Source: Gemmataceae bacterium (GTDB taxonomy: Bacteria; Planctomycetota; Planctomycetia; Gemmatales; Gemmataceae). From it: a DNA stretch of 64,000 bases. A model generated the notes under the pieces. It saw only the letters and a list, made by a program, of their open reading frames with translations. It did not search any database and was not told the DNA's origin. Below are positions 3,940 through 7,342 of the stretch, in pieces (the stretch's first letter is position 1; the number at the start of each line of letters is the position of its first letter). The position numbers and the translations under genes are program-made. The DNA is taken from the NCBI GenBank assembly GCA_019636445.1, contig JAHBXO010000005.1:186001-250000 (forward strand). Direction: 5' to 3'.

Positions 3940-4001
3940 GGTTCGTTCCCGCAGGGCGGCAGTCTCCAATGCCCTTCGTTTTACGAACCCCCCGCGAGTT
4001 T

Positions 4002-4012
4002 CTAGATTGGAA
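4002..4012 (+). promoter_or_regulatory. CTAGATTGGAA motif before kinase gene
   Basis: The 11-mer CTAGATTGGAA ends 22 bases before the kinase start at 4035. It occurs again, in the same orientation relative to the gene, upstream of the other kinase (18840-18850). TAGATT could serve as a -10 element, but no good -35 is visible. The shared use is an inference from two sites only. Confidence 0.3.
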
Positions 4013-4034
4013 TCAATCTCTTTCAGGATCGCGC

Positions 4035-6074
4035 ATGGCGTCTGCCGATTCCACGGCCGAATTTCTCCGCGCACTCGAAGCGACGGGTTTCCTCGCGGCC
4101 GACCAGTTCCACGCGCTCAAGGGCTGGGTCCAGCTCAAGCACCCCGATACGCAGGAGATCGCGCGGGAACTGAACAAGCGCGGCTGGCTGACCGGTTTCC
4201 AGATCAAGGAGATCTTCCGCGGCCGGGGCAAGTCGCTCGTCGTGGGGCCGTACCGGGTCCTGGACCTGCTCGGCGAGGGGGGCATGGGCCGCGTCTTCCG
4301 CGCTCTGCACACGCGGTTGGGGCGGGAAGTCGCGCTCAAGGTGATTCGGCGAGAGAAACTCGCGAATCCGCTGACGGTGCGGCGCTTCCGACAGGAGATC
4401 CAGGCCGTCGCGCAACTGTCGCATCCGAACGTCGTCATGGCGTTCGATGCGGACGAGGCCGGCGGCGATCATTACCTCGCGATGGAATACGTCGACGGTA
4501 CCGACCTCACGAAGCTCGTGCGCGATCGTGGGCCGCTGCCGGTACCGGTGGCGTGCGACTATGTCCGCCAGGCCGCACTCGGGCTGCATCACGCGTTCGA
4601 ACGGGGTCTGGTCCACCGCGATGTGAAGCCGAGCAACATGATCGCCGCCAAGACCGGTCAGGTGAAGGTGCTGGACCTCGGACTGGCGATGCTCAACGAA
4701 GCGCCCGGCGGCGAGGATGCGGCCCGCGTGACGCAGGAAGGCTTCGTCATTGGCACGCCGGACTTCCTCGCGCCCGAACAGGCGCAGAACCCGCTCCACG
4801 TCGACACGCGGGCCGACATCTACGCGCTCGGCGCCACGCTCTACTATCTTCTGACCGGCAAGGTACCCTACGAAGGCAGCAACCCGACCGAAAAGCTGAT
4901 GAAGCACGTCTCCGATCCGCCGCCGAGCCTGTTGCGGCGATTGCCGAACGCCCCGCCGCAACTCGATCAACTGATCCAGTGGATGATGGCGAAGGACCCG
5001 AAGGCGCGGCCGCAGACCCCCATGCAGGCGGCCGGGGCACTCGCCCAGTTCGTACCGGGCGCAGCCGCCAACCCTTATCCACCGCCGGCATCGTACCCGC
5101 CGGCCGGGCTTCCCATCGGCCCCATCGATCCCTCCGGCAGCAGCCAGATCTTCCGCCTGCCTCAATCGGAAGCGCCGGCCCGCGTGCGCGAGCGCATTCA
5201 GGGGGGCGGGTCGCGTGCCGCGCTCTTCATCGGAATCGTCGCGGCCGTGCTCGTCGGCGTGCTCGGTTACTGCCTGTACCGCTTCACGCTCATGCCGGAC
5301 CCGGCTCCCGAGCCGGAATACGCCAATCCGCTGGGAATGAAGTTCGTGCTGGTGAAACCGGGCGAATTCCTGATGGGTTCGCCGGAGACCGAACCGGGCC
5401 GCGGCCCGGAGGAAGGACCGGTCGGCAAAGTCGCGATCGATCATCCGTACTTCATCGGCACGACCGAAGTGACCAGCGGCCAGTACCAGCAGATCATGGG
5501 CAAATCGCCGGCGTGGACGGCGGGCCGCGTGCGCGGCGGTACCGAATGGCCCGTCGAAACGGTCTCCTGGCTGGAGGCGCAGGAGTTTTGCAAGAAGCTC
5601 AACGAACGGGACCGGGGCCGACGCCGCGGGTGGGACTATCGGCTGCCAACGGAAGCCGAGTGGGAATACGCGTGCCGCGCCGGCACCGACACGGCCTTTG
5701 CGCACGGCCCGGAACTGTTGCCGGAACATGGCGAGAACATCCAACTGCCGAAAAACGAGCTGCCGGAGGACGAAGGCAAACCAAAACCCACCGAAATGCC
5801 GAGCAAGGTCGGCGCGTCCCGGCCGAACGCCTTCGGGTTGTTCGACATGCACGGGAACGTATCGGAGTGGTGCCAGGACTATTACGAACGCGGATACCCG
5901 GAAGGCGTTCGAACGAACCCCGCCGGGCCTGCAACGGGCGACCTCCGCAGCGTGCGTGGCGGGGCCTTCGACGAACCCGCGACCCGGGCGCGATCCGCGG
6001 CCCGGCGAGGCATGCAACCGGAGCTGCGGGATCGCGGCGTCGGATTCCGCGTCGTCCTCGCGCCGAGTCCGTGA
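4035..6074 (+). CDS. Serine/threonine protein kinase with extracytoplasmic FGE-sulfatase-like domain
   Basis: This 679-residue protein begins with a helical segment (about 8-70) of a kind often found before planctomycete kinases. A Hanks-type kinase domain follows: glycine loop G-E-G-G-M-G at 80-85, catalytic Lys102, H-R-D at 194-196, and D-L-G (for DFG) at 214-216. A Pro-rich linker leads to one membrane span (about 395-417) and a formylglycine-generating-enzyme-like domain (about 430-676, with G-N-V-S-E-W and G-F-R-V-V). The kinase should be cytoplasmic and the FGE-like domain outside. The usual C-terminal catalytic cysteines of true FGE are absent (R-G-G-A-F-D-E in that region), so I read it as a sensor or ligand-binding domain, not a sulfatase-maturation enzyme. 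The ATG at 4035 was chosen because the conserved helical segment starts just after it. Confidence 0.9.
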   Translation: MASADSTAEFLRALEATGFLAADQFHALKGWVQLKHPDTQEIARELNKRGWLTGFQIKEIFRGRGKSLVVGPYRVLDLLGEGGMGRVFRALHTRLGREVALKVIRREKLANPLTVRRFRQEIQAVAQLSHPNVVMAFDADEAGGDHYLAMEYVDGTDLTKLVRDRGPLPVPVACDYVRQAALGLHHAFERGLVHRDVKPSNMIAAKTGQVKVLDLGLAMLNEAPGGEDAARVTQEGFVIGTPDFLAPEQAQNPLHVDTRADIYALGATLYYLLTGKVPYEGSNPTEKLMKHVSDPPPSLLRRLPNAPPQLDQLIQWMMAKDPKARPQTPMQAAGALAQFVPGAAANPYPPPASYPPAGLPIGPIDPSGSSQIFRLPQSEAPARVRERIQGGGSRAALFIGIVAAVLVGVLGYCLYRFTLMPDPAPEPEYANPLGMKFVLVKPGEFLMGSPETEPGRGPEEGPVGKVAIDHPYFIGTTEVTSGQYQQIMGKSPAWTAGRVRGGTEWPVETVSWLEAQEFCKKLNERDRGRRRGWDYRLPTEAEWEYACRAGTDTAFAHGPELLPEHGENIQLPKNELPEDEGKPKPTEMPSKVGASRPNAFGLFDMHGNVSEWCQDYYERGYPEGVRTNPAGPATGDLRSVRGGAFDEPATRARSAARRGMQPELRDRGVGFRVVLAPSP

Positions 6075-6078
6075 TTCC

Positions 6079-6429
6079 TCAGCCGAAGACTTCGCGGTAC
6101 GCGTCTTCGTTGAAACCGACGAGCATCGTCTTCCCGACTTTCGCCGTCGGTGCCCGAAGGTTGCCCGTCGGCCCCATGATGAGGCCGAGGATCGTGTCGT
6201 CGTCCGGGCGGTCCTTCTTCAAGTTCAGCCGTTCGATCTTCTTCCCCTTCATCGCGATGATCGTGTCGATCCCCGCGAGCAATCCGAGCGCCGCCTGCGT
6301 GTCGATGCGATCCTTCGTGGCGTTGACGGTCTCCTTCGCGACGATCCCGGCAGGCCCAAGGAACCCCTGGGCATTCTGACAGGTCGTTCAAGACTTGCGG
6401 AAATAGAGCCAGTCGATGGCCTTCGGCAT
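6079..6429 (-). CDS. ArsC/Spx-like thioredoxin-fold selenoprotein (in-frame UGA = Sec14)
   Basis: Reading leftward from the ATG at 6427-6429 gives 116 residues if the UGA at 6388-6390 is decoded. The N-terminus is M-P-K-A-I-D-W-L-Y-F-R-K-S, then UGA, then T-T-C-Q-N-A-Q-G-F-L. The UGA falls exactly where ArsC/Spx-like proteins carry the first Cys of their CxxC redox motif, giving U14-T-T-C17 at the end of strand 1. The frame continues without any other stop and ends with the family's cis-proline loop (N-L-R-A-P) and a G-F-N-E-D-A-Y motif. A purine-rich G-G-G-G-A lies about 8 bases before the ATG. A hairpin fitting a bacterial SECIS follows the UGA. The likely role is a thiol/selenol redox protein or reductase of unknown substrate. 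A normal gene caller would start at 6282 (TTG) and lose the active site. SelA, SelB, SelD and tRNA-Sec are not in the window. Confidence 0.82.
6354..6390 (-). promoter_or_regulatory. Candidate bacterial SECIS element with UGA codon
   Basis: Immediately after the UGA (6388-6390) the mRNA can form GCCCAG-GGGUUCC-UUGGGC (6372 to 6354). The stem has six pairs (one G-U), with a possible extra G-C pair inside the loop, and the loop is G-rich and contains GGUU. The loop begins 21 bases after the UGA. A stem of at least four pairs, a G at the start of a small apical loop and this distance agree with the general description of bacterial SECIS elements bound by SelB. Pairing was judged by eye. Confidence 0.6.
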
Positions 6430-6483
6430 GATTGTTTCCCCGGATGTTGGAGTCAGTCGTTCGGAACAAGAAAGTTTCCCGTT

Positions 6484-6541
6484 GTAGAACGGACTTCTAG
6501 TCCGTCTTTCCTAGCTCGGACGGACTAGAAGTCCGTCCTAC
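6484..6541. repeat. Inverted repeat, ACGGACTTCTAGTCCGT family
   Basis: Arms of 23 bases at 6484-6506 and 6519-6541 are mutual reverse complements with one mismatch, separated by 12 bases. Each arm is itself nearly palindromic (GGACTTCTAGTCC). It lies in the 202-base gap upstream of the selenoprotein gene, so its promoter must work around or through it. The rest of the gap holds only the terminator at 6590-6621. Confidence 0.85.
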
Positions 6542-6631: not shown

Positions 6632-7342
6632 TCAACGGAAGCTCGTGCGCCAGTAGTCGTGCGGCGTCTGGAGCCGGCCGAGCCACCAGTGCCCGTCTTC
6701 CCATTCGAGGACGACTTTCCGCCAGCCCGGCGGGACCTTCGGGAAGGGGTAGAACGGCCCGATGAACGGGAAGGCGTTGTACGGGTATGCCTGCGGGTAC
6801 GCGACGCGCGACAGGTTGTTGTGCGGGGCGTAGGTCGGCCAGGCGTAGGGAGGCAGCGGGGGGCCGCTCATCTCGCCGCCGCCGGGCATCATCGCGGCGC
6901 CGCCGGGCATGCCGAGCGGGGTCGGTTCGACCAACGGGGTCCCGCCGGTCGAGGGCGGAACCGCCGCGATCGGCTGGGCGGCGACGGGACCAATCGCCTG
7001 CGCCTTCACGAGCAGGTTGGTCGCCGGCATCGACAGGCCGTCGCGGACTTTCTTCACACCCACCACGCGGCGGATGTCGTCGATGATCTGGCCGTGGGTC
7101 GTCGAGTCCTTGGCCGTGCCGGTCACGGTTACCACGCCGTCGACGCAGGAGATCGAGACGTCGGCGTTCGCCGCCGATCCGGTCGCGGTCAACTGGGTCG
7201 CGACGGCGTCGGCGAGCGCCTGGTTGCTCGACGCGGCGGTCTTGGTCGCGGTTTGCGGGAGCTTGGCCGGTTCGGCCGCGCCGGCGGCCGCCAGGCCGCT
7301 ACCGGCGACCACCGCCGACAAAAAAAGCGAACGCACGTTCAC
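6632..7342 (-). CDS. Exported BON-domain protein
   Basis: This 236-residue protein has an N-terminal signal peptide (hydrophobic to about residue 20, A-A-G-A-A-E). A single BON domain follows (about 40-110), with V-D-G-V-V-T-V-T-G-T and the D-D-I-R-R-V-V-G-V-K-K-V pattern typical of BON folds. The second half is low-complexity, rich in Pro, Gly and Met, and ends in a short aromatic segment (W-E-D-G-H-W-W-L-G). BON domains bind phospholipid or other envelope components, so an envelope-stabilising role is likely. The GTG at 7342 is preceded by GGAGG with 7-base spacing, which fixes the start. It is monocistronic. Confidence 0.85.
   Translation of the reverse strand: MNVRSLFLSAVVAGSGLAAAGAAEPAKLPQTATKTAASSNQALADAVATQLTATGSAANADVSISCVDGVVTVTGTAKDSTTHGQIIDDIRRVVGVKKVRDGLSMPATNLLVKAQAIGPVAAQPIAAVPPSTGGTPLVEPTPLGMPGGAAMMPGGGEMSGPPLPPYAWPTYAPHNNLSRVAYPQAYPYNAFPFIGPFYPFPKVPPGWRKVVLEWEDGHWWLGRLQTPHDYWRTSFR

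Follow-up and report, generated by a model that had tools for sequence, protein, structure and literature searches.

A gene on the minus strand of the analysed 64,000-nucleotide stretch (hereafter the window), part of a 5.9-Mb Gemmataceae (Planctomycetota) genome, is almost certainly a genuine selenoprotein gene (probability of about 0.96). It belongs to the ArsC-related UxxC family NF041106, and we predict that selenocysteine (Sec) is inserted at its codon 14 with the help of a SECIS element. This reading is supported by the exclusive exchange of Sec and Cys among homologues, a covarying SECIS hairpin, the presence of a Sec machinery, a dN/dS of ~0.15 and the predicted fold. The features of the gene are collected in Table 1.

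Table 1. Coordinates of the features of the predicted selenoprotein gene in the window
Feature	Position	Strand	Basis
Predicted ArsC/Spx-like selenoprotein gene	6079..6429	-	116 codons and stop, ATG start; matches to NF041106 and PF03960
Probable ribosome-binding sequence GGGGA	6437..6441	-	7 nt before the ATG; from sequence
Predicted Sec14, in-frame UGA, first residue of U-x-x-C	6388..6390	-	Only TGA or a Cys codon in 166 family rows (two partly overlapping sets)
Cys17, putative resolving Cys of UTTC	6379..6381	-	Invariant in the family alignment; opposite the second CxxC Cys of Spx
Bacterial SECIS hairpin GCCCAGGG-GUU-CCUUGGGC	6354..6372	-	8 bp, -12.7 kcal/mol; covariation, covariance model, bSECIS criteria
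L-R-A-P, cis-Pro loop of the thioredoxin fold (Pro94)	6148..6159	-	Conservation; aligned with L-R-R-P of Spx
Terminal TGA, serving as the actual stop codon	6079..6081	-	Family homology ends there

A reading of the sequence alone had proposed a frame of 116 codons open except for one UGA. Our analysis bears this out and places the frame on the minus strand, which that reading had not specified: it starts with an ATG at 6429-6427 and contains a single in-frame TGA at 6390-6388. The product harbours the motifs U14-T-T-C17, L91-R-A-P94 and G105-F-N-E-D-A-Y111, the last two of which had been described as family hallmarks, and the ribosome-binding sequence postulated before the start codon is present (6441-6437). 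Under the standard code the longest ORF in the same frame codes for only 67 residues from a TTG at 6282, also as predicted. The UGA is retained in the closest relative (91% identity), and dN/dS is ~0.15 over the frame as a whole; the parts before and after the UGA are both constrained.

When U is treated as C, the NCBIfam model NF041106, 'ArsC family (seleno)protein', is matched with 135.9 bits (cut-off 85). The match covers positions 1-107 of the 107 of the model and residues 5-111 of the protein, and it thus spans the UGA. The [UC]xxC motif required of this family is UTTC here, and only TGA or a Cys codon is found at its first position in the relatives. The Pfam ArsC model PF03960 is matched with 40 bits (cut-off 24), and the window gene product is the only PF03960 protein found in its genome. 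The Spx/MgsR model TIGR01617 gave 40.2 bits, below its curated cut-off of 75, and the ArsC equivalog TIGR00014 was absent from the NCBIfam matches up to an E-value of 1. Profile alignment placed the UGA exactly opposite the first CxxC Cys of Spx, which agrees with the position assigned to it from the sequence alone, and L-R-A-P opposite L-R-R-P of Spx. In the family alignment L91, A93 and P94 are invariant and R92 is nearly so. The AlphaFold model has a pLDDT of 91.7, and its best structural neighbours include Spx of Bacillus subtilis (PDB 1z3e, 3ihq) and YffB (1rw1), which share the ArsC-type thioredoxin fold and the cis-Pro loop (VIA Z 7.5-8.5; Foldseek E-values 5e-5 to 7e-4). The Z values are in a middle range, so that sequence counts for as much as fold in the family assignment. 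Spx has Cys in its CxxC where the window protein would have Sec in UxxC, and the window protein scores under the Spx cut-offs.

The gene had been presented as an overlooked selenoprotein. The selenoprotein part of this claim is supported, but the implied novelty is not, since NF041106 is already curated as a (seleno)protein family and the UxxC family is listed in reviews, as 'Arsenate reductase-like protein, NF041106, UxxC' in 2026 (PMC13188914) and as 'arsenate reductase-like protein, UxxC' in PMC9312934. The window gene is thus a true member of a known selenoprotein family rather than the founder of a new one. It shares with NF041106 (ArsC_rel_Se_1) the full-length match, the UxxC motif, a bacterial host with Sec machinery and a downstream SECIS; we found no difference, and it represents a member from another Gemmataceae genome. 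Bacterial ArsC-like selenoproteins have been reported (PMC1794560), and marine metagenomes contain both UxxS and UxxC types (PMC1088965, PMC2398784). Arsenate reductase 2 (cd03032, UxxC) of the Global Ocean Sampling selenoproteome (PMC2398784) belongs to the same superfamily and has the same motif, but it comprises marine metagenome sequences, unlike the window gene.

We then considered the codon aligned with the UGA in homologues. The family is matched in 89 of the 102 genomes of the order. Among 86 members from the order, the codon is TGA in 63, TGC in 17 and TGT in 6, with no other codon present (L102 was set aside because its N-terminal motif is missing close to a contig end). A wider scan of species genomes yielded 80 loci, 72 with TGA and 8 with Cys, from Planctomycetota and from records labelled Acidobacteria, Melainabacteria/Obscuribacterales, Tectomicrobia and Binatia, labels that may be wrong for metagenome-assembled genomes; this set has some genomes in common with that of the order. 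The search for homologues with an aligned Cys or further UGA copies, suggested as a check on the sequence-only reading, thus returned both. Within the window's own genus the sister genome (91% identity) has TGA, and Limnoglobus roseus has Cys (TGT). A cultured relative, Gemmata sp. IIL30 (locus L113), also carries TGA. A tree built with the Sec column masked requires at least 11 Sec/Cys changes, five of which are forced by well-supported branches; the exact counts are soft because the alignment is short. One member, L106, keeps the TGA with its second motif Cys replaced by Val (UTTV), next to UVTC in its sister L105 (about 1001-1321 in each).

The genome of the window encodes all the components looked for, namely selA (557 bits), selB (380 bits, full length), selD (365 bits) and tRNA-Sec with a TCA anticodon. 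Since this machinery is present and the aligned position holds only Cys or UGA, neither of the findings named beforehand as fatal to a selenoprotein, a genome without Sec-insertion genes or close homologues with disrupted downstream frames and neither Cys nor UGA, was obtained. Two different tRNA-Sec genes, both with this anticodon, were detected, one on contig C5 (L013:1501-1594) and one on contig C31 (L014:1501-1594), the latter contig possibly a contaminant. Their long variable arms differ, and both can pair. Three genomes of the same genus have one strong tRNA-Sec match each; more than one such gene is known from some genomes (PMC5330540). The selD gene itself carries an in-frame TGA, in T-C-A-G-U-A-G-K, and directly upstream of it lies a SelW-like gene with a C-A-A-U (CxxU) motif (TIGR02174, 62 bits, cut-off 34; L010:2484-2726, contig C24). 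By their sequences, these two are the predicted second and third selenoproteins of the genome.

Complete Sec-insertion gene sets have been reported for Gemmata obscuriglobus and Isosphaera pallida (PMC4807772), and selA exceeds the cut-off in 90 of the 102 genomes of the order. Two well-assembled genomes with neither selA nor selB over the cut-off (G050 and G094) have the Cys form, and two others (G100 and G101) lack both selA and the ArsC-like gene. The TGA form occurs without a selA match in three assemblies, G040, G082 and G086. Missing contigs are the likely cause, since G040 and G086 have selB and G086 also has tRNA-Sec; only G082, 88% complete, is devoid of selA, selB and tRNA-Sec.

Further support, beyond what the sequence-only reading had considered, comes from a hairpin that begins 15 nt past the UGA. 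Counted from the UGA, positions 19-26 pair with positions 30-37, leaving a GUU loop. Bacterial SECIS elements are described as having a loop of 3-9 nt with a G in the first two positions, a stem of 4-16 bp, a distance of 16-37 nt from the UGA and an MFE of at most -7.5 (PMC13188914). The hairpin lies within all of these ranges, with its GUU loop located 23 nt past the UGA, its 8-bp stem and its energy of -12.7 kcal/mol. Across the family, 92% of stem cells are paired in Sec genes vs 40% in Cys genes, and the third-position entropy of codons 7-11 past the UGA is 0.1-0.8 bits in Sec genes vs 1.3-1.9 in Cys genes. In 35 cross-phylum sequences from outside the window's genus, 93.9% of cells are paired and 35 cells carry double changes, with GC/CG/UA/AU at one stem pair and AU/GC at another. 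None of 500 shuffles scored as high, and slid registers were 30-61% paired. The SECIS of E. coli formate dehydrogenase, the model bacterial SECIS, likewise has a stem-loop just 3' of the UGA whose small apical loop contains G/U; the stem sequence of the window hairpin presumably differs from it and is family-specific.

As an Rfam search with relaxed E-values returned no SECIS family at the hairpin, we built a family-specific covariance model, trained on the cross-phylum sequences without the window's genus. It scored 54 bits (E-value 3e-14) at the UGA and hairpin of the window, the runner-up in the whole genome reached 17.8 bits, and the terminal TGA (6081-6079) gave no match. Together with the NF041106 match across the UGA and the retention of the UGA under constraint, this score indicates that the ArsC/Spx-like frame is more than a product of chance. 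Only one of the 23 Cys genes matched the model strongly (L044, 33 bits), the others scoring below 18 bits or not being found. Much of the SECIS hairpin is thus retained in this Cys form (L044:1528-1572), probably as a relic of a Sec-to-Cys change in the recent past. Conversely, the TGA is present in L170 (4040-4084), L171, L175, L176, L180 and L154 with a hairpin sequence unlike that of the family. Downstream of the TGA, L170, L171, L176 and L180 carry GCGCCGACGCGTTCCTCGAGAACGCC or a near variant of it, which may represent another type of SECIS.

These data bear on two other ways of interpreting the codon. If the UGA were a real stop, resulting from a nonsense mutation or a sequencing error, the locus would be a pseudogene or only the 67-residue downstream ORF would be made, and a standard gene caller would indeed stop at the UGA and start at the TTG. 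The truncated ORF would, however, lack the active site, purifying selection acts on both sides of the UGA and the hairpin covaries. Conservation of the UGA in dozens of independently sequenced genomes, in the order as in the wider set, in effect refutes this explanation, which we consider hardly credible, and agrees with the initial view that the gene is not a pseudogene. Any suppression of the UGA would open the frame, so that it might also be read as another residue, by general recoding such as UGA=Trp or by unspecific read-through. This is just as improbable, as Cys is the sole exchange partner, TGA is the true stop of the same gene in a genome with the full Sec machinery, and the SECIS-type hairpin is a specific feature of the TGA forms.

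The selenoprotein gene appears to stand alone. A BON-domain gene (6632-7342) lies upstream on the same strand, and a convergent gene for a Ser/Thr kinase with an FGE-sulfatase domain (3969-6074) ends 4 bp downstream. Clustering of the genes flanking 81 loci revealed no widely conserved partner, arsenic-related or other; the largest clusters consist of the gene itself and of apparent reading-frame shadows or lineage-local neighbours. A sigma-70 promoter scan, uninformative for Planctomycetota, found nothing. The stretch that separates the selenoprotein gene from the BON gene contains an inverted repeat, ACGGACTTCTAGTCCGT/ACGGACTAGAAGTCCGT (6489-6536). The genome has eight copies of its 18-base arm, with three instances of an inverted pair at a near-equal spacing of 11-12 nt, so that the repeat resembles a small palindromic element of the dispersed kind. 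The best Rfam matches (MIR4380 and others) all remained below their gathering scores, and that of MIR4380 sits on an inverted repeat upstream.

Under the selenoprotein reading, the ribosome would start at the ATG at 6429 and meet the UGA at codon 14, where SelB-GTP-Sec-tRNA(Sec), held by the hairpin (6372-6354), would insert Sec; translation would end at the TGA at 6081. The product is predicted to consist of one thioredoxin-fold domain, of the ArsC/Spx type. In it, Sec14 probably pairs with Cys17 beside cis-Pro94 to give a selenenyl-sulfide redox couple, which may reduce disulfides or other oxidised substrates, whether small molecules or proteins. Judging from family and motif, the protein is most likely a stand-alone selenol/thiol oxidoreductase.

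Two more specialised functions are less likely. A true ArsC-type arsenate reductase with a catalytic Sec would fit the PF03960 match and the name 'arsenate reductase' given to related selenoproteins (PMC1088965, PMC2398784, PMC13188914). However, similarity to ArsC proper is weak, Spx and YffB being nearer, and the motif is UxxC rather than UxxS, the motif of the family listed under the ArsC model TIGR00014 (PMC13188914), which the protein does not match. As the recurring neighbours of the 81 loci show no arsenic-gene linkage either, we regard this function as unlikely; arsenate reduction by the window protein is possible but unsupported. Even less probable is an Spx-like redox regulator that binds RNA polymerase and uses the selenenyl-sulfide as its switch. 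Spx provides the closest solved structures, the first Cys of its CxxC switch lies opposite the UGA and its Leu-Arg-Arg-Pro opposite Leu-Arg-Ala-Pro, but the TIGR01617 score amounts to 40 of the 75 bits of the curated cut-off. If this were nevertheless its role, the protein would serve as a sensor with Sec that targets RNA polymerase, not as a plain oxidoreductase.

The window thus contains a clean example of a small redox gene of which an ordinary gene caller would report no more than a 67-residue fragment devoid of the active site. Its family makes a useful evolutionary data set for the repeated interchange of Sec and Cys inside one bacterial order, with at least five changes demanded by well-supported branches, and follows a pattern in which the SECIS decays once Cys replaces Sec.
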